Shown here one piece after another: positions 1,571-61,984 of a stretch of 64,000 nucleotides of DNA (the first letter of the stretch is position 1; every line of letters begins with the position of its first letter). A model generated the notes under the pieces. The model ran no database searches. It was not told the origin of the DNA and saw nothing but the letters and a program-made list of their open reading frames with translations. Source of the stretch: Dysidea avara (lineage: Eukaryota > Porifera > Demospongiae > Dictyoceratida > Dysideidae). A program made the position numbers and the translations under genes. The stretch is from positions 2,468,001 to 2,532,000 of the forward strand of contig NC_089274.1 in assembly GCF_963678975.1 (NCBI RefSeq), in the 5' to 3' direction.

Positions 1571-4500
1571 ATGGCTACTGGTGGTGCAGTTCACGGTGTA
1601 CCCATACTCCCGACTCCAGGGTTTTGTGAATTTTTACACTCTCCTTGTTGGCTGTATCCTGTTATAAGCTTCTTTTCTCGTGCCATTGATGGTGAGTTCT
1701 GTCGGGTGAGTTTGAGGTTACCCCTTACTTACGCTTTAAATTCGTTGTGTAGAATATGGATACAGTGCTGTCTTCGGTGATCCTGTTTTGGACCGAAAGC
1801 AAATAAAACAGGAAATATACAAAATTCTTTACGAGACCTACTGTGATTTGGTGAGGTCATGAGGTCACACATTGTGGAATGCTCGCGAATAGCTGTATGC
1901 AGAGATTGTGATAAAAATGCATTTGTGTATAGAGTTACCAGTTGAGTCAATAGTAGCGAATCCGGAAGAATTTTAACATTAATGGAAATAGTTTTCAAAA
2001 CCTTGTGTAATACTCTGTGAGGATCTCATAGCTATATAAACACTTAGTTTTTAAAAATCCGTCATAGGATGGTGGAGTTATAAGCAATTTTGTCCCTTAA
2101 AATATGCTAAAATTTGTCCATATCTTTCCATTGAAAAAGGTCACAAAAAAATGGCACAATTGAACAAAAAACAATTAATCACCTTTGCAATAACATTTTG
2201 AACTTCTGTTTAAATACCTTAGTACATCGACCACAGTGTAGCCTTACTTGTAAAACCCTCTGAATAAAGGTCACTTCCATAGAAGGCCACTAAATAGTTG
2301 CATGCATTTAGCATCTTACAGATGGCAAAATAGCATACGCATGGTGAAGTGCAACCACTCTGTACCAGTCATCTACACCCAAAAAGGATTGCGGACCCTA
2401 ACAAGGGCTGAAGTTTCATCTAGCTATTCAGTGAAGTCATGTGAAACTGTCAACCAGTCTTAATGCTAAGTTTAGCTTTGGTTCAATTGTCAGCTGATAT
2501 TAATTGAGCAATGGTGATTGTTGTTTCAATATAGTCACCAGGCCATGCAACCATTCAAATAACCATTCTGTATTTCCTCGTATAAAAGCCGCATTCAATT
2601 AAACGCCTGTCTTGATTATAATCGGGGGGTTTCCAGCACCTTTGGAAAATAAATGCCTGGTCTCAAATAGAGGCCTAGGCTGTTACCTGAGTCCATTAAT
2701 GACTTTCATTGTTTCCCTTGTTGCTGCTGTTTCTTCATACTTAGTTTAGAGCCTTCTGAAGGATGAAGGTTACTACTAATAATCATGTGAGTAGTCCGGA
2801 TGAGTCTGAGTGCATGCAGATATGTATGATAAAACTCTTTTGTATATAATAAAACTATTTTCCAATCAATTTAAACCTTTACTACACATGTTTATATAGT
2901 CAACACACTGTATCACTGTTTTCTATGCTTACCATTACAGTGATTCTGTTCTACCACCACCCAAATTCGATTAAACACTGGACATTGGTTGAACAATCCA
3001 AAATAAACACCCAGTCTCAAATAAAGGCCCTACAGTTGGACCTCTCTTAACGAACTCCCTGAATTAAGGACACAATAGAAAAAAACCTCCATGATAAGGA
3101 CAGAAATTTTGGTCCCAACAGGTCTGGTTAATACATTTTTTACCTCTGAAAGAGGAAAACCTTTATGCAAAAAGTGGCCAAAAATTCTGGGTCCCAAAAT
3201 GTCCAGTCCATAATAGAGAGGTTCCATTGTATTCGTTTACAGGCTGGGTCAAAAATGCTGAGAAGGAAACAAAAGCCCCAGGCTTTTATACAAGGAAATA
3301 TGGTATACTGTGGTGTTGATATTGGCTTAGCTAGCCCGTCACTAAATTTTGGAAATTATATCAGTAGACATGAGTTATGCACCTTTTAAGTGATACTAAG
3401 CTAAAGGAAAGGCTTAATAGTTCAAGTTAATTCTGTTGACAGTCATTAAACATTAGCAGTATAGTTTTCAATAGTTTATTAAACAGCTGATAGATTCCTA
3501 GCAGAACACAAAACTTCTATACTGCTTTCTGTAATACACATTTACCATTTGCAGGTTGGTTGTATTCTTGTGGCATATCACAAAGACCAACAGGTGAACT
3601 TGTCAGATGTTGTCAAGACAGCTGCAATGTTATGTGGGGAATATAAACCTATTGGATTGAGACAGGTAATAATAGTGAATATGTCACATCCCATAACTTA
3701 ATGTTTTGTAGGATGTCGTCAACTTCATACAAGCTACTCTCAACATGGAATATTTCAGTTACTCTATGATGTGCTACATCAACATATTTAAGATATTGTG
3801 TTGTCATGATATGAAGAGGGATATAATACAAAGAGATTATGAAGTTAGTGTACTACATGTTACATAGAAACAACTGACTTGTCATTATATTACTATAGGC
3901 AAAAGAGATGAAAAACTTGTTGAAGTATTTGCATGATCAGATGGAGCTCATATTTGAAGTAAGTGCAACTTGTTATTGTTGACCTTTACCATATATTGCT
4001 TGACCTGTCCACATGAAATATTCTAAATTAATAACAACAACTGATGACTTAGTAACCAAGTGTCTGTAAGGATATAGCTACGTCACTGAATCATTGTTGC
4101 AAAACCTAGTGTTGTTTTATAGACAATGTTGATATGTAACTGGCTATGGTTAACGTTTATACAAGCTAAGTAAAGTTCTCCAGTGGCAAGTTCCATGTTG
4201 TTACTAGTTGCATATCCATGCAGGAACACAAGAACGTTCAGAAGTATTTCATTGGGGTGAAGATGCCACCTGAACTACACAATGGACCATTTCTCTGTTG
4301 TTATGGAATTAGCTTGTGTGACCCTGATTGTGGCCATGAATCATTCCTTGGAACATTATTGTACTTGACAAATGAGATTTCCAAGTCATCAGTTGATAGA
4401 CCTCAAATGATTCAGCACATTGTAGAAATGCTTCGTACTGTTACGGTAAGTTGTATCATCACAATTGTGATATTTTGTGTGAGATAGGGTATACTATACT

Positions 4501-7500
4501 GTGATGATGTATTGTTAAATGGGGAAATTGTCTTTACCCTTGTCCAAAAAACCAAAACCATGATCGTTATGATTCAATATAATTGGCGAGCCATAGCGAG
4601 CATCCTATGGTAGTGTTTGTTCAACTGTACGTCCGACCCATATGACCATTCCCAAAAGTTTACGTAATGAATACGGACAGTCTCAAGCTAAGGCTTGCCC
4701 ATGATGCTGTGTAGCATCCGTATAGTTAAGTAATGGACCAATCAATGTATATTGCATCTAATTTATGTATGTATATGTATGTAATTGAATGGGTGTACAG
4801 GCTTCTAAGCCTCAACCCAAATCACATCATAATCACATCATAATCATGTATTGTTTACTGATAGTCCACTATAATTAGTCACTTACACATGATCATGACA
4901 AGTTGCAGTAACAGTGTATAGTTTAGCTAGACAGTTGTCTAGCCAAAACAACTTGCTGCCGGTACTATGTAGGTACAGATCATCCTAAAACCAACCTCAT
5001 TTTCCCTTACCAGGTTCAAATATTTCACACTTTATGTTAACCTGGTATATACATGTTCCAGCCTCTCCAGAAGTCATCAGCTTCTTCAGCAATCCCCCAA
5101 CACCCTGTATCTTGGCAAATGAATTCCAAGTATCCTGTGTACTAGCCTGACCCTTTGCTTAAAGTAAAGATCTGGTACACGACTTGTGTAGCCAGTTGGA
5201 AAATGACTGGTTGATCATATATTGAAGAATCCATTTTACATCATGGGGTCATTAATGTTTTAATATTCAGACTAGAAAATTTCAAAGATTCAGTGTTATA
5301 CTGAAAGACATGATACAATCAGTAATGTTGAAAGACTTCTACAAATATCAATCACACATGCTTGATTAGGTCCACTAAACTAACCTGGTCATCCAATCTC
5401 TTCTTAAAATGTACACCCTGCATGCACATTAATAGTGTAATAACCAGGACCAAATATTTTACACTTTTCTTTACATGATACAAGTGCCAGTTATTTCACT
5501 GAACTAGACTCTTCACTAATTGAATATCCCAAGTAAATTGAACACATTAACAGTGTAACAATCACCTTCACAGTTTTTCCAACCTGTTACAAGTGCCAGC
5601 TAATCCTACACAGCTTCTTCAGTAATCTCCCAACTTTCAGCGTGTCTCAGCCTCTTTATATATCACCTTGAGCAATTTCTCAACATCCTGTTGATCACCA
5701 AAGACAACACTCTAGTAATCTTTGGACATCATTCTAATAAATTCAAGCAACTCTGCATGTACTACATGTATAACAACCACAATGTATAACAACATTTCTA
5801 CATGTATAACAACCACAATCAAGTGTAGCTATAATATACTAATGTGATATGAGGTCATGAAATCTATTACATATTATGAGTGGAAAATCCCTTGGATATT
5901 ACTCATGGTGGGTGTAACTTTCAAAAAAAATTATATTGTTTGGAACATTGATGTAATGTGATTCAATCTCAATAGTTACAAAATAGAACAACATTATGGT
6001 GGATGTAGCATGTAGTAGATTGATTAAAATGTTCTAGAAAGTCATATGTTAAACATCATATTATTGTACAATTACATGTCACTATTTATGTTACATCTCC
6101 CTTGTTACAAAAAGGAGTGTGGTAAGTGGCTGTGCTACAATTGCAAAACTTAATTACAGTGCTTAGATCAACTAACAATGATAAATTGTGTGCAGTGTGA
6201 GCATGAGAGTCGCAGAAATTGGTCTGCATACCTAACTGGGGTCTTGGTAGTTCTTTGCGAGCATCTTAGTGCTGGGACCATTTAGCAGGTGGCCTAGGCT
6301 CATAAACTTCAGGGGATTCAATGACTGGTCCATTTGTATCACTATCTGGACTATATAATTGGTCATCAACACTTATGTCGATATTTGCATATGATGCTAA
6401 ATTCCTCAAATCTGATCTGTTTCTGTGATAATATTGTATGATAGTGTTGTCTTTGTGGTGTCACAATATTGTACAAGCGAGGGCCAGTAACACTGGAAAT
6501 CTTGGCTGGTTTCCATTTTGCTATCTTAGGCTGCCACGAGTACTGGCTCTCCAACACCAAGATGTTGTGATGGCTTTGCATGTTGGTGATCGTATAGTTT
6601 TTGTTGCTGTCAGCATTGGACAAGGTCTTTCTGAACCGTACATGGTGGGAATAATTGTTTTAAGCTGTAGTAAGGTGCTAATGGTGGGTAAAAGTGTCTT
6701 TTTTTTGCCTACCCATTAAGAATTGAACAGGTGAGCCAATAATATCTGACCGTGGAGTATTCTGATACTCCAACAATGCTAAATTTAAGTCCTTTCCATT
6801 GTGTAATGAATTGTTTGACAGTTTGCACAACTTTCTCAGCCATACCATTGGATTGGGGGTGGTATGGGCTGGAGGTGTGATGATCATTTTGATATTGCTG
6901 ATTGTAATGTATGGCTACAGAACATTGTCCATTATCAGGACATCCGGTATACCATGATGAGAAAACTGTGATTTAGTATGTGTTGCAAATACCACATGAT
7001 GAGATGATGGAGATGCCATGACTGGTCAGTACAGGACATCTCTGACTCATCGTTTTCACTCTTCTATTCCCATATGAGGTCTGTTAATTAATTGTAGCAT
7101 TTTTGGTTACGTTGCCTTTGGAATAATTATCTTTTCGCCCTTGAAAAATACTCCCATCATTGCAACATATTTGGTCATGGAATGTCCAGAATGATAAATA
7201 CTAGATAGGGACTTTTAATATGCAGTATCTGTGATCACTGATTGCTTTCCAGGATGATACACAAGATCGATTGGATACTTCTGAATTGACATAATCATCT
7301 TTTGAAATCTGGCAGGCCCTGGTAAAGCAGATTTTTTATAATGGCCTTTAAAGGCTTGCGATTGGGCATCCCCTAGATATACTCGCGAAACTTGTTACAG
7401 CAAAATACAGTGGTGAGCATTTCCTTCTCAATTCAAGCATAGTTTTACTGGCATGGTGTAAGCGCATATGCGATGGGGTGGTTATCTTGTAAGAGGACAG

Positions 7501-10500
7501 CTCCCAAATACTTACAGCTAGAATCAACTGGCAGTTTAGTGGGCTTCTTGGGGTTAAAGTACTTTAGCACTGCAGCTTCAGTGATTAATTCTTTCAGAGA
7601 TGTAAAACTCTTTTGCTGCTCATCTTGCCATTTACCCAAATAGGTTAACATACCTAAAAATATCTGGAGCTCTTCTCTGCTTGTGGGACAGGGCATGTCT
7701 GCTATAGCTCTAGTCTTTATAGGATCAGGCTTCAAACAATCCTTGCTGAATATATGGCCAATATAGTTGATTTTTTGCATTTTTAGTTGGCACTATAAGC
7801 TTGAGATTTCTATGCCTTGCCCTTTCCAAAACTTATTTCAATCGGTTGTCATGCTGTTCGTCATTTTCTCCCCATATCAACAACTTCAACTCCATTGATA
7901 TTATAAAGCATGTCTGACACAGAAAACCATCTTGGGACGATGGCAGTCCAAATGGAAGATATTTAAACATGTACCATCCAAATAGTGTTAAAGGTACATA
8001 GTTTGGCACTGCAAGAGTCAAGCTTAACTTGTCAGAAACCACTAGGATTGAAAACTCTGTGGCATTCAGCTGATCATTCCTCAATTGTACATCATGTATA
8101 AGGTTCATGCTAAAAGGCTGTATTCAGATCATTAAAGTCTGAAGATGTGTGACTAGACATGTTGAAACAGACCCAAGACAGCCAATCACAAGTGGTATAA
8201 TTTTAGCTCACACATTCCACATTCTTTGTATCTCTATCTTCAAGTCTGTGTATCTTTCACATTTCTCGTTAATTTTCTGAGTGAGTCGGCTATCACCAGG
8301 TATGGCAATGTCAATTATAAAGGCTGTCCTTTGGTGATGGTTGATATATACAATATCTAGCCTGTTATGAAATAAGCGTTGGTCAGTCTGGATGGTGATG
8401 GTAAATCCCAAGATCTTCATTGTAGAATTTTCCAGTACAGATGGGGGATCATGAAACCACTGTTTATCTTCAACTGGTAATTCCCTGAGTTTTGCAAGTT
8501 CATAGTGGATCAGCCTTACCACACTATCATGTCTTGATTTGCATTGTGTCTGGGCGATAACACTACAGCTGCTCAAGATATATGATCCACTGACTCAACA
8601 TGTAACCCATACAGACAACACTGGGCAGAGCCAGGCTGGTGAAAAGTGTTTATTTTGATGCAGTCCATTGTTGTGAAACATCAATGCAGCCATCAATGTC
8701 CCTGGCAAACTGACCATGCATGGTTTAGCTTTCCAACTATCATAGTGGTGTTGTTTCCTCTGTGCCTTAAACTTAGATGGAGATTCTAAAGGAGAAGACC
8801 TCTCAGCACACTGGATGAATTGCTTGCAACAAAGGCTCTTCACTGCTAGCCAAATACTTAGCCCAAGTGTGGTACACTGTGTCTTCCACTGAAAGCAATC
8901 CGCAACCACCATTTTGTCTTGATACATACAATCTGTCAATGTCATCATTTTATATATAGGCAAGGAGCTTTCGAGTGGAAATGTCCAGCTGTTGCAGGTA
9001 TGTTACAGATCCAATTTTGGAAACTAATTGACTGCTCAGAAATTACCAAAAGTGGCAATTTCTGGCAACCAAAAGTAGTTTTTGGCAACTTTTGATGGTT
9101 CAAAAAGTTTGGGCAGTGGAGGAAAGATGCCAATTCTGGCAAGTTTCTAGTTGCCCATAATTGCCACCTTTGGCATTTATTAGCAGTTCAAAAGTTGCCA
9201 AAACTGAAAGTTTCCAAAATTGGCAAGTATTGTTTTGCTTTGAGCAACCACAAAAAATGGTGCTCCAAAGCTACCAAATCTGGCAGTAATTGTATTTTTA
9301 CTTATAAAGGACAATAAACCCATTGATTGTGGGATTTGGTTTGCCAAAAATTACCAGAAGTGGCAACTTTTGGATGCTGAGAAATTAGTGAGCAGTTCAA
9401 AAGTTGCCAAACTTGGCAACTTTTGGTTGCCAGAAATTACCAATTTTTGGCAATTTAGCTATTTCTGGCAACTAAGCATATCACTTTTTATGCAATGCAA
9501 AGTTGGAAATTTTTGCGACCAAATTGGAACATTCTTAACCACACAGAATTATCATAGCTATTAGACACTTTTCAAGCTGGACAAAAGTTGCCAAAACTGA
9601 AATTGTTCCAAAATTGGCATTGTCTGTGTTGCTTTGAACAACAAGTAGATGGTGCTTAAGTGCTATCCCACTTTAATTATAATATGCAATAAATGGGCTG
9701 ATTTAGTAAATGTAAGTTAATCAGTTTCTACAATGTGGAAGATTTGAAGTTAAGATTGTCTATATCACATCCACTTCTTAATGACCCTTTTACACCTATG
9801 CTTGGCCAAGGGTGTAAATTCCTTGCATCACGGGTTATTGTTTTCTTCTTCTTGTACAATTTCCAAGACTTCTTCTTCCACAGAATTGCCATTGGAGTTA
9901 CCAACTCGATTGCCATTGCCATCGAGTTGTACTTTTATATAATAAACATATTATTGTTCAGTTATTCATAAATTTTAACTGCTTAAAATATGAGTGTGAT
10001 CAACAAGCTACCAATAAAATGTACATACCTTATTTACTAGTAGTTGCACTTGAGTAGTTCCACAATCAATTTTAAAAACTTAAACAAAGTTCTATGAGTA
10101 GCGATAGATTTTGAATAATTGCCACATCAATTTGAAAACCAAGGTAATGAACACTGTGGTATTTAACCATGTAAATACGGAACTTATTTAAGGGATAAGT
10201 ATAATTTCGTTCTTTTTAATATCAGTCAGGTTGCTGGAATCTAGTACAGTCACAACGCCTTATTACTTTTGGCAGGTTAATATGTTCACTTTCAAAAGTA
10301 ATCTTTTTTTGCCAAAAATGGCAATTTTCCACCTACAACACAGACTGAAAGACACCTTCTTACCCGCATAAAATTCCACTCATTTTTTGTTATTCTTCTT
10401 TTTGCAACACTGTAGAAAAATCACTATAACTCACTCATGCTTTAGTCGATTTTCTTCAAATTGAAGGGCAGTTGAAACTGATTGCCCGATGAGATATAAT

Positions 10501-13500
10501 AATTGCAACCTAGCTGTGTGAGTGAATAGACTATTTACGTGGTATAATAAGCATATTTTTAAAGCATCGACTTCTTATTTGAAGTGATTTTAGTCACTCT
10601 GAAGACACTTTTCAGTTTGATTCTACTTAACCAAAACTGCCAAGGTGCCATGAAGGGATTGTGAAGCTGATTTCTGGTCATATTATTTTTTTGTGTGAAT
10701 TTTTATGATTCCTATTATACAATCCTACTGTATTGTATGATGTACCTTCAATAAAATTATTAATATATATATATGCAGAAATTTCCCAAAATGGAAATTG
10801 TGAGCACCTCAAAAGTTGCCTAAAGTGGTAACTTTTTTGTTGCCAGATATGGCAATTATATAAATTGACACTTTGGGTATCAAAATATTTTTTGGCAAAC
10901 TAAATCCCACAATCAATTAGTTCATCATCCTTTATAAAAGGAGTAGTACACTTATTGCCAGAATTAGTAGCTTTGAACACCATCTTGTGGTTGTTCAAAG
11001 CAAAAAAACAGAAGTTGCCAATTTTGAAAACTGTAAGTAGTTTCCAGTTTTGTCAATTTTGGCCTGCTCGTGTTAAAAAGTTGCCAAAAGTGGCAACTTT
11101 TGCTGCTCAAAAATTGTGAGCAGTTGCCAAACTTAGCAAGTTTTGGTTGCCAGAAATTGCCGTTTTTGGTAATTTCTGAGCAGGTTTAAAGTTGCCATAA
11201 TTGGTTTGTAACATACCTCGCTGTTATAGTTCTAGTGGTGACCACTTCAATATTCCAACAGTATAACGTATTAGTGGCAGTGCCTACATGTTGAGGCCGA
11301 GATTAAATTCTGTCCATTTAGAGCTGATATTAACAATAATTATTATTATGTTTAAATAATACCATATATATATATACTTGAAAGCATATGTACAGGAGAT
11401 TTGACAAGTTTAACTTGAACTTTAGAGTGAAAGATGTCTCCTTAACATCTTATCAGTCCTTAGCAACACTGTCTTCTGTAATTGATGAACAATGATTTCA
11501 GTTATTTGGAGGAATTCAACAGTTTTTTCATGTAGGGAACCCAAACCACCAAAGACCAACTCAACATTGGTGTTCCATAATAGCTGAAGCTCCATTTCCA
11601 AGTCCAAATACTTCTTAATTTTTTCTCCATGCTTGTCAACCACGTGACGGTCCATCACACAAGCTACGTCAATAATTTTGGTACACCTGGACACCTTATC
11701 TATCAAAACTAAATCAGGTCGTCTAGCAGCAATACCATGATCAGTAAAAATATTAAAATTGTAGAGCAGCTTATAGCTGGAATTGTCTAAAACAGGTTAT
11801 GCTTTTACAGTGCATGGCTACAAAATTGTGTGTACAAAAAATAAGAACTAAATTAGAATCCAGCAAATACCACTGATGGCCTAATACTCACAAAACTAAT
11901 TAAGTGCACTTAACTACTTACTTATAAATTTGTAGGTGCGGGGTTACAAGAACAATTATTACACGGAAAATTATATGGGTATTTGCAAAGTGTGAAGCTA
12001 CCATTAGGCTTAACAACAGTAACCATGCTATTCAACCAGTGATTGGGTTCTTCAACCTTTCAAGTTACACCTAGCTTTTCCATTTGGATTACCGTATTTG
12101 ACCGGTTAATAGCCGTGGCTACTATAACTTTCAGCAAGCAAAACCCTGTGGCTACTATCCGAGGGCAGCTACTATGAGCTTGTGTGGCAGCAGCCTGCAG
12201 CATTTATATGGATTCATGAGTGGCTGACCTTGTTTAATCATCTGTGAATACTGTCATTAATTTTAACTTCTCTCAAAAATGCTATTCCTGGCTTAAAACA
12301 ACTCCTTTTCCTGGTTTCTGCTTCAAACATGTCTAGTCAACACTTGCAACAGTATGTTCAGATACAAGCAGTGGCTCTTATCTGAGGGTGGCTCTTATGA
12401 CAATGATTCTAGGCTGTGGAGTGGCTACTATCCGGGGGCAGATATTATATGAGCCACGGCTATTAACCGGTCAAATACAGTAGTTCCTCTTGGATATTGG
12501 GTCGCAAAGTGACTGGGACTCTTCTAGGTGGTCAGCAAAAACTTTTGTCAACTTTGATATGATAGTTATGCAACCAATCCTTCAAAAACAGCTGTATGAG
12601 TTAAACAAATCAGTGGTGTTATGTTGATGGCGTCTAAGCGTTAAGAGGCATGTATTTAAATCAGTGGCTATAAATATAGCTGGGCATGTCCCTCAATCTG
12701 TTGATTTAGATTGTGAAAGGTTGCTCAATTGTTATTGTCCAGACAGTTCGTGAAAGGCCATATCATGCAGGTACAGTGTCTCCAACTGTCTACCAGTAAT
12801 ACCTTGTAATGCAGCTGAGCACTGCTTTAAATGGTGGCTAATATAGAAGGTGTTGATACAGAAAATTAATGCCTTGATACGGTTTCGTTTCATGAAGAAG
12901 AAGTCAACCAGCATGATTGAAGATTAAAGTAAAGGCAAGATGCAGAAGGAAGACACTTGCCAGAACCCCATAAAGGTACATGCCACACATGAGCCAAGTA
13001 TTGTGATGAAAAATGATGGTGGCATGGGTTTAGCAATTTTTAAAAATTCAATATTGGTGTATGTATGCATTTCAGCCATACACAGCCTGTGATATAACTG
13101 AAGTTGGGATTAAATGTCCACTAGTGTATTTAATGAAGTAGGGATACAAGTGGTGAAACAAGAGATGAATGATGCTATTACAGGATAGCTCCGTGAAGAT
13201 CGTTTATTATATGCTGAGCTGACATACCAGCAGTCAAGGAAGACCAGCTAAACTGTGATAGTCGTCGATTACATTTATTTAGAATTTGATTATTATAAAT
13301 GTTGCACACTTTAAGGATGCTGAAGGTCCACCAGTATCCTGCATGTAGCTACCAGTGGCCAAGTTAATCACATCAATGCATCGATGTGTCAAAAAAAAAA
13401 AATTCTAACGAAACTATCCCTACCACACTTCCCTTTTCTTACCACTTTGGGTGGACGGTGTTAATGTATGGTACTATTGTTAGCACATTCAGTTCTACAA

Positions 13501-16500
13501 TAGCATAGTAGACGGTAAGTGAACTATATGGGGAGCTAATATGCCAGGAAGGCCAACGAAGATCATCAATTACATGCTGAGTTAACGTGCCAGCAGTCGA
13601 AGAATGCCAGCTAAACTGGGAAGTGATAAACGGCGTGGGTGATGAGAATCCAACCTAGTCTCATCCGAGATCCTTATACGGTCACTAATCAGTTGTAAAC
13701 ACCTGACAACAAGTATTCGATATATTTCATGTGAGAAAAGGTCACCTTCCTTTCATCATCTGGCTTATGTACTGGTGACGTGACATCGCTCGCCAACTAA
13801 AGCAGTGACCTATCATGCTAAAAGGGGTCACACACTGTGATTTGTAATGAATGTCATGAAGGTTACAAGGCATTGCACGATGCAGCCATGTGTTTCTATT
13901 GTGTAGTGCTACACCCTAGCATCAACTGCCCCGGAAATCTCCAATTATTAGACCTGGTAAAGGGGTTGGAAGTTCCAATAGTCCAAAAGCATACTAACAT
14001 GAGTAAATTCAGTGTTTACATTCACGTGTGTGACAGCGAGCTATATAGTAATCACCTACAGTTCATCAAAATGTGTAAATCACTTAGGTGCAAGCAGAGC
14101 AGATGAGCTCCCAGGACGATATGGTAATGCCACATTCCCCCCTGGGTAGTTGTTTCGTGATCCCAATTTTGGCCATCCAGTAGATTGAAAGTAGATACAG
14201 TAGCTGTTCACTGTGTCAGTAACACTCAAAAGCTGCACAGTGCCTGGTTGGCATGTAACTTAAACCTGCCCTCATTGCTAGGGTCAGCACTCATCTGGAC
14301 AGAAATTGGTCGATGTATGTTGCACTTATAGGACAACTTACCTACCATGTATGTCAGTTATTGGGGGCGAGCCCCACACTAACGAAAGAGCCATAAGTCA
14401 TCGTCAATTACACAGCAACTTCATGATTAAATACAAAAAACAAACCTGACAAGTTCTTTAGTGTCACACAAGGACGCAATAATATACAAAGTAGTGTCAG
14501 TCATCGTCAATGTCACAGATGTAATTAACGGTGTAGATTACTGGACTTTCTTATTGGTTCTGGTAATTGTGGAAGTCACGGCAAAGTTAAACAGCGTAGG
14601 TTACTGAGCTTATTTGTACTGTTAGTCATTGTTCATTACACGGAAGTTAAATGGCATGGATTACTGAACCTCCAGTTTTGCTGTCAGTCATTGACTCATC
14701 ATCAATGTCATGGCGATTCTTCAAGACTTGTTGTAGTACAATGGATAGAGATTACTTCCTTCGAATGAATACCAGCTAAGAGGCTGCCCGCATGTTTTTG
14801 GATCTTCAATAGCAGCGGAAGCGCAAACATGCAACTACAAGATAATGCGCACTTTCACAGTGATAATCCAGACTATTTACAACTAGATGATGACATTGAT
14901 AGCACCTAGTGACAACAGTGATGAAGAGTCACCAGATTACTCACCATTTGAACTGAATGCACAGTCTCCGACACTTCCAACCATAAAATGTGGTGGTATA
15001 TAAACAAAATTCAAATAGTTACATGGTAATATTGAGGTAGTTATTCATTACTTAAGGAACATGTTCCAATATATGTAATGACTGCCACTGCTTCACTACC
15101 TACATAACAGAAACAATGCCATAGTCACCAGATCATATACAGCACAATTACAACTACACAGGCTCACCCCATGATGCTGATAGCATCTGTCTAGTCAAGC
15201 AGATGGTGTAAATGGAGGTAGGCTCAATGTGTAACGTCACATCATCACTACAATTTCAGCACAGTTATTACATCGATAAACACCCCTCCCCTTTTAGCCA
15301 TTATGTGCTAGGTCAAGCCCACTCACTATTTACTGGCGCATGCAATCCCAGCTCTTGACGGGGCAATCAAGGGTTAGTTTGGGGTCATTGACATGAGCTG
15401 AAAGTAATTCGGGACAGGATAAATGGAGTGCTAGAGAGAGGTAGCAATCTAGGTGAGAGGTGCGAAACAAGTTAAAGCCATACGTGTATAGAAAATGCAA
15501 TACTGATCTTTGAAAGAGGGAAGTCATTAAGTACACAACTGAGTTATCAGTGTTCTTAGTATAATGATGGTGGAGAACTAGGCTAGATAAAGCGATGTAT
15601 TGAGCCATATAACACATACAAGTTAATGAAACATACCACAAAAGAATGTGCAAGGAGCAAAAGTATTGGGAAGTACCAATACAGGTTACACTGAATTACG
15701 AGACACAACAAAGTGTATATACATACAATGGTCAGGTTAGACCCCAGTATGTCATGGGCAGAAGCACCCAGGACTGTTTACTGAGAATCTACAGCGACAA
15801 ACCTAATGAGTTTGAGCAAGACGAGATTACCTTGGTGCCAGTGGAGTACCATCAAATTTCTTCGCTTTGACATTCAGAGCACTGGGCAGTTGCGGTAACA
15901 TGATCATTGGACACCACCATGGACTCTACAAGGGACTCTGACATTGGTACAGGTGTACGGTGACAATACAATTAGTACAGTACGGTAGAAAAGGTAATGA
16001 ACCAGTTGCACTGAGGAGTGCTTGTGTATCAAACAGTACGGTTGTATTGTTTAGGTAGGGATCGTGGTGAATGTTTCATGTGCCGCCCAAAATTCCGCCT
16101 TTAAAAATCATCCTACAGACATTTTACACAGCGAAAATAAGCATTGAGATAAAAGTGACAGGGATGGATTACAGTATGTTAAATGATGGCACTTCATTTA
16201 TACAATAGTTTACCAGTACGGTACATGTGTCGCAAAAAGTCTTTTACTCAGAAGGCTATTTCCAAATATCAACGGGTATGTTAGGGTTAATTGGTAAATG
16301 GTATATGGATGTTGTTAATTACACGATATGATAAAAAGGGGGTGTATATAGACAGCAGAGTTGATTGTTTAGTCTTGGCAGCTCCTGCGTTGTTGAAAAG
16401 TTGCTAATAGCATGCTAAGCACAGTGGGACAAAATGGTGGTGCATGCATATGGTTAAGTGAGGTGAGTGTTTGACAGGACCCTAATCCAGAACGCATATG

Positions 16501-17493: not shown

Positions 17494-19314
17494 TGACCTC
17501 ATCAATCTTGTACTGGACTGTCCTATGGTTATCTGTTGTGTTGCACACATCCTAACATGTTGTAATGTGTCACTTGTTATATCAATATTATTACTTGTAA
17601 TCTGTCTTGTCATACAATTATCATAAGTTATATGATACAAATACAGAGGGTTAGGTTACACTATATATCAGCATGCTAACATACACAGAAAGCACTGGAA
17701 TTTTTGACATATTTTATATAGTTGTACATAGTTTTAATTCACATCTGCAAAAAGTTAAAGGAAAGTGAAGTTACCTTTAAAGAGAATTAACCAAGCTTGT
17801 AAATAGCTACGTGTATGAGAGCATCACTTGATGATAAAGATTCATAGCTAGTTACAATGCACCCCAGCATATCCCCTACAAGAAGAATTGCAAAACTGGA
17901 CTCATGCCAAATTAGTGTGGAGATAAGTTGTGCTGCAACCTTTACATTACCACAGATTAACACTTGGGTCAATTATCTGAATGTCAAATAATTGTTCTAT
18001 TAGAGCATTTTATTCACAGGTATATAATTTATTAGTTGTTTGGTGTCACATATTAAGGTACGTATACAAATACCCCTCTGCCATATTTGTTTACATAATT
18101 GACTCTCCACTGTTATTGGTAATCCCATACAGAAACAGCATGGCTGTGTTTGTGTAACTGGCAACTACAGGGACTAATGTAGCAAGACTTAACATAGAAC
18201 ACAAACCAATAATCTCTGTTATTAACTTGCATGTACGAATATTCATTCTTGGCCACACCAGTTCTTAGTAAATTCTAATAAGTGATTTTTTCTACCACTA
18301 CTAGCCAATTTTAGAAGGAATTGATTAGAGGCTGGATGTAGCACACAAGTCAATGACAATAATATTATTTGCATTGACATTCATTCTCAGGTATCAGTTG
18401 TATTATCACACAGTTGCAATGTGTACTATCCCAGATAAGTTATTTTTGTACAGTTGAGTTAATTTTGCATGATTTTTTAAATCAAATGCTAAACTAATGT
18501 ATTTTTAAGTATGTGATTTTTAACAATTTGTGTAAACAGCAGGATCTCTATTACCTGAGCACTTTTCTGCTATCATATGCTTGCACTGAGCTGGTTCCTG
18601 AGAAACAGTAAAAAGGAAAGCAACATTTAATTGCAAGAGAATAAATATTTCATGATTTAGTGATGAGTCTGCAAAGGTGTGAATAGTAGACCATAGCTCC
18701 TGTGACAAGTTTGGAGAATATTCATACCACACCACACACTTTTAGCATAGGAAATGTATGGTGTAGAGTCATAATAAAATGTCAGACATTTGAATGAAAA
18801 GAATTAGTCATCAAGCATTACTACAAATGAATGGGCCAAATTTCAAGATCCTGCTCATTTAATTTTGTAGGCAGCTATCCACAGCACTAAAGTTCACACA
18901 CATACACATGCAAATTTGCAATACGTTACAATAGATTACAATAGATTACAATACGTTACAATACAATTATTTGGCTCAAGCTTAATATATGAAAACTATT
19001 CCAAGGAATTTGATTAGACCTAATTTTCCCAAAATGCTTTCAGAAATTTCCTAAAATTTTCATTTATTATGCTGTTCCTATTATGCTTGTATTATGCTTT
19101 TAGGTTAGTAATATTTCTTACAATTATCTTGTATTTCAAAGTGACTGTTCTATTAGAGAGAATTGATCTAAAGAACTTAGCTTTGTATAATACATCTGAG
19201 TGCTTGGTTGTAGTTTGCAGCTTCCACTCACTGCTCTGTTAGGGAGTATTAATCTATTTTCATGGAATTAAGCTCCATAGTTTAAAATATTCATCTAATA
19301 ATAATGCTGGCATA
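17494..19314. other. 3' flank of copy A, shared with copy B (inverted)
   Basis: Directly after the stop, TGACCTCATCAATCTTGTAC is shared with copies B (39905 downwards) and D (61985). Homology to the B flank continues in blocks: 18500-18800 matches 38945-39235 inverted, and 18990-19300 matches about 38400-38760 inverted. No AATAAA close to the stop was spotted. 18921-18965 holds a short TTACAATAGA repeat. Confidence 0.6.
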
Positions 19315-22003: not shown

Positions 22004-22018
22004 GATTGATTGATTGAT

Positions 22019-22059
<41 letters not shown>

Positions 22060-23660: not shown

Positions 23661-23705
23661 CAGGTGGAGGGGGAAACATAGTGACAGAGCACAATTCTTG
23701 AGTAT

Positions 23706-26923: not shown

Positions 26924-26959
<36 letters not shown>

Positions 26960-34494: not shown

Positions 34495-34565
34495 TGATAC
34501 TCCATAAGAAGAAATGGAATTGTTCTAATGACTCCCTTGACCTAGTCTCGTCCATTAATATTAAT

Positions 34566-35053: not shown

Positions 35054-35478
35054 TTAATGGTACAAAGCAGAGTGCAAGTATCTAAGCCAATAAAATAAGA
35101 GAATCATTACCCTGTGTAGTTGTAATAGTTGTGCCTATAGTTGTCAACATTTCGGTTGATACTCCATAAGAAGAAATGGAATTGTACTCCCTTGACCTAG
35201 TCTTGTCCTCGCAAACCCATTCTCGGGGGTGGTGCTTATCGATTAGAGATTTTTCAGGGTCGCTTATAACGATCTCTAATCGATAAGTGCCACCCCCGAG
35301 AATGGGTCTGCGAGGACGAGAGTAGGTCAAGGGAGTCATTAGAACAATTCCATTTCTTCTTATGGAGTATCAACTGAAATGTTGACAACTATAGGCACAA
35401 CTATTACAACCACACAGGGTAATGATTCTCTTATTTTATTGGCTTAGATACTTGCACTCTGCTTTGTACCATTAACAG
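35051..35478. repeat. Large palindrome 2, arms ~205 bp, same hairpin centre
   Basis: Begins CTGTTAATGGTACAAAGCAG and ends with the complement. The centre (about 35200-35325) is the same GTCCTCGCAGACCCATTCTC / TTATCGATTAGAGAT hairpin as palindrome 1. The arms again carry intron 2-like sequence. A further partial copy of one arm (35478-35531) follows. Confidence 0.85.
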
Positions 35479-35623
35479 TGGCACTAGGTCAAGGGAGTCA
35501 TTAGAATAATTCCATTTCTTCTTATGGAGTACAAAAGCAACAAAAAGCAATTATAAAGTAAAAGGCTTTAATAGTTAGTTATTATAAGTAATTAAGTACA
35601 TAGCTAATTTCAGGGTCTGGTAC

Positions 35624-47518: not shown

Positions 47519-47702
47519 CTCTATAAATTGTGAACTGATTGTGTGCTCTGGAAGGTCGGGCAATTTTATTTGTGCAGTCACGTGTAATCTGATGACGTAA
47601 CTAATTACTGAGCCGACACGTGTCCTCGCACATTTAGCACATATTTTCGTAAATTCTCGACACGTGTCCTCGCACATTTAGCACATATTTTCGTAAATTC
47701 TC
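47519..47702 (-). promoter_or_regulatory. Promoter of copy B, with duplicated 44-bp E-box unit
   Basis: Minus-strand order towards the ATG: two perfect 44-bp direct repeats (47702-47659, 47658-47615), each with ACACGTGT, then TTACGTCATC (47600-47591), then CACGTG (47584-47579), ACTGCACAAATAAAA and the ATG at 47518. Same layout as copy A but with a duplicated distal E-box. Confidence 0.65.
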
Positions 47703-49624: not shown

Positions 49625-49720
49625 TGACATCATCATATTGCACATGACTGCACAAATAAAAACTTTCCAACCTAGGTGACCTTCCAGACCACATACTTTG
49701 AGTATACTCAGTTCATAGAG
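49625..49720 (+). promoter_or_regulatory. Decayed promoter of copy C
   Basis: Alignable with the promoter of D (ACTGCACAAATAAAAACT, CAGACCACATACT). The CRE-like site reads TGACATCATC instead of TGACGTCATC and the E-box reads CACATG instead of CACGTG. Both changes are CpG to CpA. Confidence 0.6.
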
Positions 49721-51412
49721 ATGGTGCTGCTCGCAGTGACGTACCCGTACTCCCGACTCCAGAGTTTTGTGAATTTTTACACTCTCCTTGTTGGCTGTAT
49801 CCTGGAATAAGGTTCTTTACTTATGCCATTGATGGTGAGTTTGAGGTCACCCCTCATTAACCTGTAATGACGCTTTTGTTGTCATATAGAACATGGATAC
49901 AATTCTGACTTCGCTTATTCCGCGACTATTGACCAAAAGAAATTGAAGGAGAAGTTTAGAATCATTTAAGAGATTTAGAGCTGGTAGGATTGTAGTTGCA
50001 CACAGGAACCACTGGTAATAGAGAAAGCACATTCTGTATGGGTATGATCAAATAGTGCCCAGTCCAAGGGCTGGCACATGCATCATATCAGGAGCTCATA
50101 AGCACCACAAGGTACATATATAGGGCAAGTGCATGTGACAACCTGTCTTGCTTATGTAAAGGTGAAGTTTGGGTCAAATTGATCATTGAACATCAACTGA
50201 AATGTTGATTATTGTTTCAACTATAAGGTCAACTATTACAACTACAAAGATTAAGGGTGATGATTGTCTTACTTTATTGGATTAGACCCTTGGTACTCTG
50301 CTTTGTAACATTTGGTCCCCTCACATAAATTCTGGGAATTCTTTTGTATAACTTTTGATTTGTGTTAACCTGCAGGAAAGGTTTAATTGTTTGTTACCAT
50401 GATCATCACATGTGCTGTTTACTGGCTAGGTTAAACTTTAGCAGTTGTAGTGTTTGTGCATTGCTGTTCAGCAGAATGCAAATTCTTAGTATACCACATC
50501 CACCATCTACCAATATGTACCATTTGCAGGTTGGTTGTATTCTTGTGACATATCACAAAGACCAACAGGTGGACTTGTCAGATCTTATCAAGACAGCTGC
50601 AATGTTATGTGAAGACTGTAATCCTATTGGAGTGAGACAGGTAATGAGTGATTATGTCACATCCCATAACTTAATGTTTTGTAGGATGTTGTCAACTTCA
50701 TAAGAGCTACTCTCAACGTGGAATATTTCAGTTACACTATGATGTGCTACAACGACATGTTTGAGATAATGTGTTGTTATGATATGAAGAGTGAATAATA
50801 AAAAAGGGATCATGAAGTTAGTGTACTACATGTTACATAGAAACAGCTGACTTGTCATTATACTACTATAGGCAGAAGAGATGAAAATCTTGTTGAGGTT
50901 TTTGCAAGGAGTGATGGAGTTCACATTTGAAGTAAGTGTAACTAGTTATTGTTGACCTTTACCATATATGCATGTTGTTTGTGTTTCTTTTTACCTGTTT
51001 ACCGTGTAGAACAATTATTCTAAATCAATAACAACATCACTGAATCATTGACACAACACCTGTTTATTTATTATTGTTCAGTTATAGACTATAGTAGCAT
51101 GCTCTAACACAAAAGGGGTAAGGTGTAACTTACCATCTAGCTATAGACAGGGTTTGGTTACAAGTTCAGTAGGTCATGGCAATGACTCAAGTTCAATATT
51201 GTTATTATACCCATGCAGGAACACAAGAGAGTTGAGGAGTATTTCAGTGTGGTGAAGATGCCCATTCAACTACACATTGGACCATTTCTGTGTCATTATG
51301 GAATTAGTTTGTGTGATCCTATGATTTGAGCCTTAATAAAATAGTGTATTTGATGAATGAGATTTTCAAGTCAACAGTAGATAGATACCAACTAACTGAG
51401 TATATTTCACAA
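49721..51412 (+). pseudogene. Copy C: broken BART-like gene, exons 1-6 only
   Basis: Closest to copy D. Exon equivalents: 49721-49834, about 49890-49970, 50530-50640, 50685-50816, 50872-50931, 51219-51412. Lesions seen: the ATG is out of frame because of a 10-base deletion in exon 1. Exon 2 has lost its last third and its splice donor, and reads into a stop at ATTTAAG. Exon 4 has in-frame TAA TAA where others read Asp-Ile. Exon 6 has a 10-base deletion after DP and is cut off by repeat sequence. Exon 7 is missing. Exons 3 and 5 remain open (VGCILVTYHKDQQ, AEEMKILLRFLQ). Not expected to make a protein of family length. Confidence 0.85.
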
Positions 51413-51612
51413 AATTTTAATAATGACAATTCAGGTGAATTTTGTGCCAAGACCAAGCGGCACAAAAATTCACTTGAATTGTCGTTATTAAAATTTTTAC
51501 CATTAACCTACCATCACAGCCATTTCTTGGCCGCCACCTTGGATTTCACATCTTTTTTCACCATAGCCTTTTTGAGGGCCGCACACTTTTTTTACAGCTT
51601 GGCTGTTTTGGA
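51413..51612. repeat. Rearranged CCAAAACAGCCAAG element closing copy C
   Basis: Begins with a hairpin (AAATTTTAATAATGACAATT, complement ending near 51500) and ends CTTGGCTGTTTTGG. Related to 42055-42214. It sits exactly where homology of copy C to exon 6 stops. Confidence 0.6.
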
Positions 51613-51629
51613 TTAGATTTCCATTGTAC

Positions 51630-52810
51630 TAGCATTATATGAATACAGCTATACCAACAACAATGGGGTGTGTCATAATGTCATTGTGATCAAGTAAAGA
51701 GACTATTGATTGACTTGATTGTTGATTTAATCTCATGATAATCAACACAGGTTACACAACCATTCTTCTTTAATGGAGCATACACATTAACCAACAAAGG
51801 ACTAAGTATACAACAAAGAAAAACAAACTAAACAAGACATGATAAGCTGAATACAACTACTCATTATCATACAACAACAAATGTTCATAAATAGGGGCTG
51901 GCAAGTTGGAAGATGAAAAGAGGCATTGTCTTGGTGGTCAAGAGATAAGTGTGGTATCAAACCCATTGTGAAATTACAGGTATGTACCAAGTATAAGTTC
52001 ACAGCATCTAAATGTGCTGGAAGGATGAAGACCAGCCTGATTGAAGATAAAAGGTGCATCCCCATCCAACTGGTAAGTTTTTTATTGTAGCGTATAAATG
52101 ATGGCTGTGAGCTGCTTCATTTGGCCTCCAGCCTCCATGCAGGGAGGCAGAAAGGCGGATAGGCAGGCATTGCTAAATTAAGGTATTGATACCATATTAT
52201 GACATGCCTTCTATCCCACACTTCATAAAGAAGTACATACAATGAGGTTATAGTAAAGTTGTGTATGGTTTCAATTTTGCTGCTCTTGCAGCTATATAAT
52301 TATTATGATATGGCTTCAAGTTTCCTTTGATCCAACTGAATGTATTTTGATGGTGACCTGCTGGGGTTTAACTTCCATTCCTGAGGTTTAACTTCCATAT
52401 CCTCCTACATTTTTACTTAGATGTATAGTGTTTCAGTAGGATAGAATTGTTTTTAATGTTGTATTTGATGTTAGATGGACTATAATAGTATTGTTCATAA
52501 AGGAGATTTTCATTAGTGTAAGATGCTTTAAAGGTGGCATTTTAGGCAGTGTGTGTCATTTTGGGGGGATCTCTACTTAAACAGTACTACTGTACTATTT
52601 GATAAGTACCATCATACTGTTTGATACTGGTTATACATGTACAGCCTGAATAGTAATCTATACTGAGCTAATATGAGTTGAAGGGACAGGTTGGATGACA
52701 GATTAAAACTAGCTAACTATACATTACAAGGACAGAAAACCCAACAAAAATATTAAACTACATTACTGCACTACCTGTCTTACTGGTCAAGTGAGGAAGA
52801 TCAACTTCTG
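51630..52810 (+). repeat. Tract shared with the 3' flank of copy D
   Basis: Collinear with 62745-64000 (for example GCTATACCAACAA, TGTTGATTTAA, GAAGACCAGCCTGATTGAAG, CTTAAACAGTACTACTGT). It continues past the right edge of the window. No gene inside. It shows that C and D are tandem duplicates and that C has lost intron 6, exon 7 and the adjoining flank. Confidence 0.75.
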
Positions 52811-57017: not shown

Positions 57018-57598
57018 TCACTGGGTAACAAGCCCTCCAGTTACGGTAAATGATTCCAGTGTAACCAGGTCCTCAGCTGAAAGGCTATAATCAAACACAT
57101 CAACGTTAGCCTTGATCCTGTCAGGTGTTACGCTCTTTGGGATCACCACTACTTTACGTTCTACTTGAAACCTGATTAAAATTTGAGCTGCAGATTTGTT
57201 GTACTTCTTAGCAATCTCAACAATTTTGGGGTCATCTAGAAGTGATGACTCTCCATGGTCGGTCAGGTGAGCCCAATGGACTATAAGCAGTGGTGACAAT
57301 GTTGTGTTTGGCACTGTGAACAATCAGCTCCTTTTGTATGAGATAGGGGTGACACTCTACCTGTAATGCTGCTGGTTGTATCTTAGCCATCGCCATGATC
57401 TCGCCAATCTGTTTGCTATTGAAATTTGACTGACAATCTGATATGTTTGACCAATCCTTCTTCCACGAGTTTCTCCATAGCAGCCCATGTCTCACAGTAG
57501 TGAGTGTCAGAGTAAATCAAACTACCATCAGGGAACTTGTCATCTCCAGCTCTGAAGCCGATAAGCCACGTGGCTTGCAGATAGACTAGTGACGTCAT
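57018..57598 (-). pseudogene. Aldo-keto reductase fragment (AKR1A1-like), frameshifted
   Basis: Minus-strand reading from 57598 gives the C-terminal two-thirds of an NADPH aldo-keto reductase without introns: [118 protein letters not shown] and IPKS are hallmark AKR segments. A 4-base insertion near 57435 and a deletion near 57250 shift the frame. The N-terminal third with the catalytic Tyr and Asp is absent. It abuts the CRE-like site of copy D. A retrocopy or an exon-fused fragment are both possible. Confidence 0.85.
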
Positions 57599-57665
57599 CA
57601 CATTGCACGTGACTGCACAAATAAAAACTGCTTGACCTCCCAGACCACATACTCAGTTTATAGAG
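57590..57665 (+). promoter_or_regulatory. Promoter of copy D
   Basis: TGACGTCATCA (57590-57600, a full CRE palindrome), CACGTG (57606-57611), ACTGCACAAATAAAAACTG (a possible TATA-like AAATAAAA) and CAGACCACATACTCAG lead to the ATG at 57666. Another CACGTG (57567-57572) falls in the AKR fragment. Confidence 0.6.
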
Positions 57666-60600
57666 ATGGCTACTAGTGGTGCTGCTCGCGATGTACCCGT
57701 ACTCCCGACTCCAGAGTTTTGTGAATTTTTACACTCTCCTTGTTGGCTGTATCCTGTTATAAGGTTCTTTGCTCATGCCATTGATGGTGAGTCTGAGGTC
57801 ACCCCTCATTAACCTGTAATGACGCTTTTGTTGTCATATAGAATATGGATACAATTCTGACTTTGCTTATTCTGCGACTATTGACCAAAAGAAAATGAAG
57901 GAGAAGTTCAGAATCATTTATGAGACCTACTGTGATTTGGTGAGGTCATAGCTACATGATTGAAGCTTTTAGAGCTGGTAGGATTGTAGTTGTACACAGG
58001 AATTAAAGGGACCATCTGAAAGTTATCCAGTGTAATGATAATGAGAAAGCAAATTCCGTATGGGTATGATCAAATAGTGCTCAGTCCAAGGGCTGACTCA
58101 ACTTCATCATATAGGGCAAGTGCATGTGTCAAACTGCCAACCTGTCTTGCTTATGTAAAGGTCAAGTTTGGGTCAAATTGATGTGAACGTGGTCAAATTG
58201 ATCATTCCTATCAATTGAACATCAACTGAAATGTTGATTGTTGTTTCAACTATAAGGCCAACTATAACTGCACAGGATGTTACTTTGTTGGCTTAGATAC
58301 TTGCACTCTGCTTTGTACCATTTGGTTCCACCACATAAATTCTGTGAATTCTTTTGTGTAGCTTTTGATTTGTGTTAACCTGCAGGAAAGGTTTAATTGT
58401 TTGTTACCATGATCATCACATGTATTGTAGACAGCTAGGTTAACTTTAGCAGTTTAGTGTTTGTGTACAGTTTTCACTGGTATATTCTCAGAGTGTGTGC
58501 AGATTGTGATTTCTCAGTATACCACATCCACCGTCCATCAATACATATATACCATTTGCAGGTTGGTTGTATTCTTGTGGCATATCACAAAGACCAACAG
58601 GTGGACTTGTCAGATCTTATCAAGACAGCTGCAATGTTATGTGGGGAATATAAACCTATTGGAGTGAGACAGGTAATGAGTGATTATGTCACATCCCATA
58701 ACTTAATGTTTTGTAGGATGTTGTCAACTTCATACGAGCTACTCTCAATGTGGAATATTTCAGTTACTCTATGATGTGCTACAACGACATGTTTGAGATA
58801 ATGTGTTGTCATGATATGAAGAGGGATATAATACAAAGAGATTATGAAGTTAGTGTACTACATGTTACATAGAAACAGCTGACTTATCATTATACTACTA
58901 TAGGCAGAAGAGATGAAAATCTTGTTGAGGTTTTTGCAAGGAGTGATGGAGTTCACATTTGAAGTAAGTGTATCTAGTTATTGTTGACCTTTACCATATA
59001 TGCATGTTGTTTGTGTTTCTGTTGACCATGTAGAACAATCAATAACAACATTACTGAATTACTGACACAACACCTGTTTATTTATTATTGTTCAGTTATA
59101 GACTATAGTAGCATGCTCTAACACAAAAGGGGTAAGGTGTAACTTACCATCTAGCTATAGACAGGGTTTGGTTACAAGTTCAGCCGGTCATGGCAATGAC
59201 TCAAGTTCCATATTGTTATTATACCCATGCAGGAACACAAGAGAGTTGAGGAGTATTTCAGTGTGGTGAAGATGCCCATTCAACTACACATTGGACCATT
59301 TCTGTGTCATTATGGAATTAGTTTGTGTGATCCTGATTACGACTATGATTTGAGCCTTAATAAAATAGTGTATTTGATGAATGAGATTTTCAAGTCAACG
59401 GTAGATAGACACCAACTAACTGAGTATATTTCACAAGTGATGATTAATGTTAAGGTAAGGGAAGTTGTGTCATCATCAGGGTTGTGATATATACTAACTG
59501 TATTGGTGTGCCCTGTATATTATTACATTTGCAATGGACCTTATCCATGTTTACATCACAACATGGGGTATTTTGTACAGAGGGGTATTGGGAGAGGTGC
59601 CTTTTGACATACTGCAGTACATACAATGCATTCTTCATGGACTTACCAGTGTCCTCCTTTGTGTCCCATTCATCTTTGCCGACAGCAAAAAGTATCAATT
59701 TGGTGGTAGCATGTGATGGCTTCCCTTCATAATGGAAATCGTCCATGTTTTTCATAGTGGCTATTTTGATTGCCGAGGTGCTTTTCAAGTATTTCTTGAT
59801 TCAAAATGCTGTGTAATGGGTTGGACATAGCTGACAACGAAGCATAACTTCAGACAATAATTGATATAGCTGGGGAGCGTGGTGCCATTTCAGATGCAGT
59901 ATGCGTGGGTTCACCAGTCATAATAATTATTTACAAAAAAAGTTCAAACAAGTACACAAAAAAATTGGAATTTTCAACTAGAGTAGGGACCATAGCACAT
60001 CGATAAAAGTACTGAAACAAGCTTGAGTAGTGCACGATATTAAATCACAGTAAAAGAACAAGAAGTGTTATATTCAAACTGTGCTCCAAGATACCATAAC
60101 AGAAATGCACAGTAGGGATATAACACTTCTTATTGTTTTACTGTGATTTAATAACATGCACTACTCCAGCTTGTTCCAGTACTTTTTATCAATGTGTTCA
60201 GTGTTGGGGCAGTTACTTTTTAAAAGTAACTAGTTACATATTACATATTATTTACAACTGAACTATTTAGTTACAGTTACATATTACCCATATAATAAAG
60301 TAACTATAATAATATTACATATTATATTACTTTGTGTCCACAGCCTTAAGCTGTCACGTGTGAAACTATCACCTTATCACGTGACATGATTGCATTGTTG
60401 GACAATGTGCAAATCTTGGTTATAAGTAAGAAGCTGGTGAATAAGCTTCATTCTGGCTAGGTGTTACTCAGTGGATTACTATAATGAGATTAGTAACTTT
60501 GTTACTTGTAGCAAGAGTAAATAATAGAAGAGAGAGTATCTAACTGCCATATAGTGCATCAAAAATGAGCACACGTTAAGTAGAGAAGCCACCCTGTAGT

Positions 60601-61984
60601 GCTATCAAAGTAAGTGTTGAATGAAGCAATAAACACTTTCTACTTCAGACTGTTTGAGCCTGGGTACTTCAAACAGTCTGAGCTAGAAGTTGTTTATTGC
60701 TTCATTCAACACTTACTTTGATAGCACTACAGGATGGCTTCTCTACTTAACGTGCTCATTTTTGATGTACTATATGGCAGTTAGATACTCTCTCTTCTAT
60801 TATTTACTCTTGCTTGTAGTAGTAATATTAAACTCGTTACAGTAACTTCATTACTTAGGTAACCGTTACGTTTGTAAGTACAGTAAATTGAGTTATATTA
60901 CCAGTTTTTATAGCGTATTTCATTATATTACTTTATAACCACAAAAGTAATAATTATTACATAACGCATTAATAAGTAATGCATTATCCCCAACACTGGA
61001 TGTGCTATGGTCCTATTCTAGTTGAAAATGCCAATTTTTTTTGTGTACTTGTACTTATATTTACAATACAAATGCACGCTATTTTGATCCATATCAGAAG
61101 TCAGATCTGGTTTTGCCAGATGGGCCTATTTTACATCACCACAACACCATTATCGAATGGTTCCATGTTGTGAAACTGAGCTACAAGCACACTAGTTCAG
61201 TTTTTGTTACTGCGTGATGAAGTCACGGCCATTTTGGCAATTATGAAATCACAATTTGTCGATACAAATAAGATCCATTCTATGTCACAACTTGTTCATA
61301 TCATGGTGGCATGTCATAACACCTCTAATGTGTTGTTATTGTGTACAGATTGATGAGGAAAAGGTGGACAAGCATATCAAGGAATTAACATCAGAAACAC
61401 CAACTACAATTGATGTCAAGTCTGAAGTCAGGAGGGTTAAAGCATCGCTTCTTAAGGCCTCATTAGATCAAAAGCTAACAATATCTAATAAAATATTAAC
61501 CATCACTCGTGACCGCCAACTTAAGCAGGCTATGTTTGATATATATAAACAGGAGGCGTTAGTTTCAGATAAACCAATGACAGGAAAGTCCAAAGAACCA
61601 AAGCTTCCAGAAGAAAAGGTTGATGCACCACAGAATCCTCAACCAGACCCTAATCCTCGTCGTACACTGAGAGGTGTTTGGTCTCAAGATAAAACAGCTC
61701 AAATGGTACATCTTGTTCAAGAATACAACCACAGGATCACACAGAACCTTGCTTTCTTATCTGCAACATTTATGATACAAGCACGTGTAGAAGACTGGTG
61801 TCAGCTTAAGATTGTGGCAGAAAGATATGCTAAAACATTTGAAGATGAGTGGCCAGATACTGTTAGTAAAATAAAGTCAGGAGGCAAACGTCACAGAAGG
61901 TATTCACATCCTCCACCAGAGGAAGTTTTGGAAGAATCACGTCAAGTTATTAAAATGCTCAAGTCTTCCACTAAACTGAACTAA
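57666..61984 (+). CDS. Copy D: BART-domain (CFAP36-like) protein, 7 exons, ~459 aa
   Basis: Exons 57666-57786, 57842-57939, 58562-58672, 58717-58848, 58904-58963, 59233-59454, 61349-61984; all GT/AG, all in frame. Protein: MATSGAARDVPVLPTPEF, FLHSPCWLYPVIRFF (residues 21-35), KKMKEKFRIIYETYCDL (57-73), VGCILVAYHKDQQVDLSDLI (74-93), LNVEYFSYSMMCYNDMFEIM (120-139). The spacing of these fits a BART domain of about 120-150 residues as in CFAP36/CCDC104. AEEMKILLRFLQ in exon 5 is helix-like. The exon 7 product has KVDKHIKELTS, LRGVWSQDKTAQ, YNHRITQNLAFLS and a basic C-terminus (KSGGKRHRRYSHPPPEEVLEE). Role by family: effector of an ARL-type GTPase. Intron 6 holds repeat R and a nested fold-back/hAT insertion. 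The cleanest copy of the cluster. Confidence 0.85.
59530..59930 (-). repeat. Repeat R in intron 6 of copy D
   Basis: Minus-strand equivalent of 41100-41770. It keeps an open stretch with MDDFHYEGKPSHATTK and KDEWDTKEDTGKSMKNALYV; only one GCTTCGTTGTC block. It lies at the same position and orientation relative to the gene as in copy B, so it was present before duplication. The CAGTCAGT end is missing here. Confidence 0.65.
60199..60998. mobile_element. hAT-type MITE, second copy, with empty site in copy B
   Basis: Termini CAGTGTTGGGG and CCCCAACACTG. Same family as 24619-25142. Flanks are AATGTGTT (left) and GATGTGCT (right), an 8-bp duplication with two changes. The uninterrupted site TTTTTATCGATGTGCTATGG is present near 40997-41017. 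Length 800 bp because of a nested palindrome. Confidence 0.85.
60511..60813. mobile_element. Nested fold-back element inside the hAT MITE
   Basis: Near-perfect palindrome of about 303 bp: GCAAGAGTAAATAATAGAAG to the complement, arms of about 140 bp around GAGCCTGGGTAC. TTGTA appears on both outer sides, a possible 5-bp duplication. The youngest of three nested layers. Confidence 0.8.

Follow-up and report, generated by a model that had tools for sequence, protein, structure and literature searches.

Proteins with a BART domain are known as a few ciliary effectors of ARL2 and ARL3. Among the closest described systems, ARL2BP (BART) carries the domain itself, and in CFAP36 (also named CCDC104 or BARTL1) an N-terminal BART domain is followed by a long C-terminal part. 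We analysed a stretch of 64,000 nucleotides from the sponge Dysidea avara (contig NC_089274.1, here C3, positions 2468001-2532000; assembly of 550.8 Mb in 108 contigs), hereafter the window, which a preliminary description had read as holding a local cluster of five CFAP36-like genes. We found seven related genes with one exon plan, gathered in a single locus of ~131 kb (C3:2.399-2.530 Mb), arranged by tandem and inverted duplication, and not found elsewhere in the genome. Four of these copies are intact and three are broken. The five copies reported earlier all lie in the window, yet the cluster runs past its edge and includes two more outside, so that its size had been understated.

Gene models were built by searching for each exon with tblastn and examining the splice borders. 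The three open copies of the window (A, B and D) each have seven exons with AG/GT borders and splice phases 1,0,0,0,0,0, identical as had been claimed, and each gives a single uninterrupted spliced frame. Copy A (1571-17493, + strand, 459 residues) consists of exons 1571-1691, 1753-1850, 3555-3665, 3712-3843, 3899-3958, 4224-4445 and 16858-17493; copy B (47518-39910, - strand, 453 residues), which gives the best match to the BART profile PF11527, of exons 47518-47392, 47341-47244, 46669-46559, 46512-46381, 46322-46263, 45976-45761 and 40527-39910; and copy D (57666-61984, + strand, 459 residues) of exons 57666-57786, 57842-57939, 58562-58672, 58717-58848, 58904-58963, 59233-59454 and 61349-61984. 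The other two copies of the window are broken, again in agreement with the preliminary description. In copy C (49720-51424, + strand), exon 2 is interrupted by one stop and exon 4 by more than one, exon 6 is frameshifted, and exon 7 was not found by tblastn and splice inspection of the window. C and D have common flanks on either side, and the stretch that holds exon 7 of D is missing in C; since the flank downstream of C (51617-52804) matches that of D (62720-64000), this stretch looks deleted. Copy E (- strand, from ~905 to 1 and on past the left window edge to exon 5 at C3:2467702) is frameshifted in exons 1 and 2, and its exon 3 holds a stop. Some 54-69 kb to the left of the window lie the intact copy F (C3:2411644-2399011, - strand, 456 residues) and the broken copy G (C3:2411969-2413550, + strand). 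The copies resemble each other well beyond chance in blastn (83% identity over 1316 bp for A-B and over 1930 bp for C-D), and they also align in their upstream blocks and 3' flanks, which bears out the common promoter block and 3' flank noticed before.

Genome-wide queries were made with exon 7 and with exons 3-6, leaving out exons 1 and 2 alone. Exon 7 of D found four places at an E-value of 1 or better, namely those of A, B, D and F, and exons 3-6 yielded 22 exon matches, all on C3 between 2409481 and 2527454. The proposed local expansion is therefore confirmed by the count of members in the whole genome, with seven copies at one locus and none elsewhere in 551 Mb by these exon queries, a count that may be a lower bound for large families and that leaves 2 kb to the left of the window (C3:2426001-2428000) unread. 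Intact and broken copies form head-to-head pairs (F/G, A/E and B/C). The F/G unit (C3:2398033-2423116) matches the A/E unit (window +18485 to -9636) in opposite orientation through 12 co-linear blocks, 83-98% identical and separated by unmatched gaps. These units are the two arms of an inverted segmental duplication, to one of which window 1-18485 belongs. E and G have a stop of exon 3 in common, and both lack the start of that exon in the same way, which suggests that the broken partner had most likely been inactivated already when the unit was copied. Across the six pairs the short introns 3 and 4 diverge by only 2-11%, and introns 1 and 5 of D by 24-43% from the other copies; the likely cause is gene conversion around exons 3-5. 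No relatives were confirmed in bacterial and archaeal contigs searched with exon 7 or in viral contigs searched with the N-terminus. The term "lineage-specific", applied earlier to the expansion, would accordingly mean that no relative was found in this genome or in these bacterial, archaeal and viral contigs, no eukaryote collection being among those compared.

The N-terminus of the proteins points to the BART family. The first 146-148 residues match PF11527 in all four intact copies (B 27.2 bits, E-value 4.8e-6; D 23.9; A 23.0; F 19.3), in three of them at or above the curated cut-off of 23 bits (A being printed as 23 against 23), and the matches cover the profile from positions 6-10 to 110-114 of 116. 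PF11527 is the sole Pfam family listed at an E-value of 10 for the four N-termini, and the one hand-reversed control gave no match to it. The BART-like N-terminus seen in the preliminary description is in this respect upheld, although the assignment, which we regard as likely, is remote and, the four copies being paralogues, their matches are not independent. Weak but consistent profile evidence suggests a BART-type helical bundle for exons 1-4, closer to CFAP36 than to ARL2BP. In helix 1 the copies have the pattern FL-x-x-P-x-W-x-x-P-[VI]-[IL]-x-F, as does CFAP36. Unlike ARL2BP, with which they have the BART domain in common, the window copies lack the motif F-[DE]-D-E-E-E-N-K of the helix 2-3 loop, and their PF11527 scores are far lower; a 24-base pattern for this motif occurs three times in the genome, always in genes of contig C8 and never in the cluster. 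Clear ARL2BP-like genes are found there in three places (C8:29552994-29596330, minus strand), where the other BART family member appears to have expanded; one joined exon set reaches 93.1 bits with PF11527 and an E-value of 5e-27 with the ARL2BP chain 3doe_B. A 17-bit PF11527 match on contig C2 was taken as chance after translation.

Behind this putative bundle lies a C-terminal region of ~285 residues. Its size had been given correctly, but it is encoded by exons 6-7 (74+211 residues in D) instead of exons 5-7, which encode 305 residues. That the region is unrecognised, as had been stated, agrees with our searches: exons 6-7 gave only sub-cut-off matches in Pfam (E-value 0.07 or worse), and PDB searches, including one with the exon 4-7 region of B, returned no solved relative. 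The part encoded by exon 7 (16858-17490, + strand, in A; 61349-61981, + strand, in D; 40527-39913, - strand, in B), likewise with no known relative, is predicted to be helical at low confidence.

The intact copies are further set apart by a composite promoter element, ACGTCATCA-N5-CACGTGACTG, resembling a cAMP response element (CRE) beside an E-box. It occurs four times in 551 Mb, once before each of A, B, D and F, where it starts 68-80 bp before the ATG (A: 1503-1526, + strand, 68 bp; B: 47575-47598, - strand, 80 bp; D: 57592-57615, + strand, 74 bp), and the reversed pattern, used as a control, has no occurrence in the whole genome. As the copies are related, these occurrences do not amount to four independent events, and the informative part of the result is the damage in all three broken copies, none of which has the whole element. 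The broken copy C is preceded by a changed version, ACATCATCA...CACATGACTG, in which both CpG cores are altered (49627-49650, + strand), and ~390 bp that read like an insertion separate the remaining half-element of E from its start codon.

The frames of the intact copies are kept as well. A, B and D differ by 17-23% of nucleotides without any stop, and in the comparison of these three, for which introns that differ greatly in length were set aside, coding indels come in multiples of three (8/8 for A-B, 7/7 for A-D, and 8/10 for B-D, where the remaining two, of 10 and 2, add up to 12), against 3/8, 2/10 and 7/20 of the intron indels in the same pairs. A neutral simulation with 8% change gave on average 4.3-4.5 stops per gene and a probability of 0.0125 or less for a gene without one. 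When the proportions of nonsynonymous (pN) and synonymous (pS) differences were pooled from the A-F and B-D comparisons, exon 6 showed purifying constraint (pN 0.146, pS 0.272, p=0.006, for one of seven exons and uncorrected).

Fast change with a kept frame, together with a promoter module that is whole in the intact copies alone, fits a family in use under loose or shifting constraint, and such change is common in duplicated flagellar, reproductive and conflict genes. The best explanation of the locus as a whole, and in our view a fairly probable one, is an expansion of a BART-like family that is in use and has helical-adaptor products. These would be soluble, intracellular, mostly helical proteins, in which the BART bundle may hold an amphipathic helix or an ARL-type small GTPase, or else a changed partner, and in which the tail encoded by exons 6-7 could serve as a second binding part; the constraint acting on the family may well be loose or shifting.

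Several observations weigh against this explanation. With full-length proteins B still passes the PF11527 cut-off (24.5 bits), but A (20.7) and D (20.5) fall under it and F gives no match at all; hhalign comparison with BART on shallow alignments returned a probability of 1% and at most a co-linear stretch; and a BART profile built from four sequences, their N-terminal stretch removed, could not tell the copies from 200 shuffles. The helical models of exon 6 and exon 7, which lie outside the putative BART domain, have a predicted local distance difference test score (pLDDT) of 57 and 46, respectively, and are untrustworthy, and Foldseek found no fold match in the PDB for the former (best E-value 6.4). 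The promoter pattern was chosen after viewing these very copies, and its second half, though not the exact first one, survives in E and G. Overall, residues are under weak constraint (pN 0.143 versus pS 0.175, p=0.07). The expansion itself is nonetheless genuine and of ordinary size, with an unusual domain.

A more specific proposal is that, in a lineage-specific gene family, a BART bundle has lost the usual ARL3 contact, has been joined to a new helical C-terminal module under a promoter module of its own, and has taken on a new role in the flagellum, in reproduction or in recognition. We regard this as possible, if tentative. If true, this group of clustered and rapidly changing genes, with its altered contact loop and new tail, would show that the BART fold can be recruited for another purpose. 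No report of such a BART expansion was found among the published papers listed from the searchable full text, which is without most subscription journals and all preprints, and no paper in that literature mentions the accession PF11527.

That the copies are instead true CFAP36 paralogues, binding GTP-bound ARL3 and at work in the cilium or flagellum, appears unlikely to us. Beside the BART profile match, this would be consistent with a PDB phmmer search in which the B domain had CFAP36 chains among its 12 weak, non-significant matches (4zi3, E-value 0.47; range 0.47-0.52), ARL2BP being absent from these 12, and with the comparison of a single CFAP36 fragment with the four copies and 200 shuffles, in which B came first, weakly (7.6 bits, E-value 0.061), and A and D ranked among the shuffles. 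Full-length D had no match in the PDB, and searches of it with the family profile, the N-terminal profile and a 28-residue piece of helix 1 gave weak unrelated matches or none. Membership of the copies in CFAP36 proper is at most putative, the PDB match standing at an E-value of 0.47 at best. In the BARTL1-Arl3 structure, Glu44 and Glu45 touch the GTPase, and the interaction is disrupted when both are replaced in the E44/45R mutant (PMC4635315). In the hhalign alignment, weak at a probability of 1% and extended to the other copies, A and F have K,Q in place of this pair, D has K,K and B has E,Q; the groove positions V61 and L65, which would favour paralogy, are conserved as V and L throughout the intact copies, yet L69 is replaced by H. 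If this alignment is right, the acidic ARL3-contact pair would be lost in three of the four copies. Exon 2, the presumed carrier of the contact loop, moreover shows the highest amino-acid change (odds 2.2 versus the rest, p=2e-4). The window family thus differs from CFAP36 in its seven clustered copies, its weak sequence match, the apparent loss of the acidic contact pair and its C-terminal region, for which no relative is known. Our searches, which easily miss exon-split genes, found no canonical CFAP36 in the genome.

A dying family, whose duplicates drift to pseudogenes and are open because they are recent, seems to us a doubtful account too. Three of the seven copies are broken, and the ratio of nonsynonymous to synonymous substitution rates (dN/dS, NG86) is 0.75-0.98 in the six pairs; in every one of them the bootstrap range (60 replicates) extends to at least 1.00. 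Such drift is at odds, however, with the frame-keeping indels and the lack of stops at the divergence seen among A, B and D, with the constraint on exon 6, and with a promoter element that is whole in 4/4 intact copies.

We think it quite improbable that the genes form a positively selected arms-race family, acting in gametes, self-recognition or immunity. By local blastn alignment of A and F, coding sequence has changed more than noncoding sequence (95/1365, 7.0%, versus 320/7108, 4.5%; p=2e-4), above all in exons 1-2 (24/219 changed, p=1e-4), and YN00 places dN slightly above dS in three pairs (A-B 0.218/0.195, A-F 0.076/0.066, B-F 0.223/0.207). Local blastn, though, keeps well-aligned pieces only (3714 of the 9834 bases of intron 6, and nothing of intron 3), and a global alignment of nearby segments reverses the result, with 346/2204 noncoding positions changed (15.7%) against 92/1368 in exons (6.7%). 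Although 241 of these 346 changes fall in intron 2, whose copies are 700 bp apart in length, the reversal persists without it (105/1207). Pooled pN is under pS, and none of the seven exons has pN significantly above pS. Positive selection drawn from exon-versus-noncoding divergence was therefore rejected, and since the noncoding yardstick varies with the alignment method, we do not claim it. Finally, an unrelated helical family matching PF11527 by chance would accord with scores merely around the cut-off and with the hhalign and shuffle results above, but has a slim prospect given that PF11527 is matched in 4/4 paralogues, nearly end to end and as the sole Pfam family at an E-value of 10.

The window also holds other sequences in and between the copies. 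A C-terminal fragment of an aldo/keto reductase (PF00248, E-value 3.4e-9) lies between C and D (57018-57323, - strand), and a reverse transcriptase reading frame (PF00078, E-value 3.1e-26) between A and B (22218-23705, - strand). Intron 6 of A contains an RNase H-like retroelement fragment (PF17919, E-value 1.2e-13; 7445-7792, - strand). Nested inverted repeats resembling miniature inverted-repeat transposable elements (MITEs) are found at 33557-35483, with segments common to the introns of C, D and E. Elsewhere in the genome, a long nuclear copy of mitochondrial COX1, demosponge-like in appearance, lies at C8:25954946-25956247, one of 21 matches in all, with fragments on several contigs; with TGA read as tryptophan (table 4), this C8 copy is open apart from one stop.

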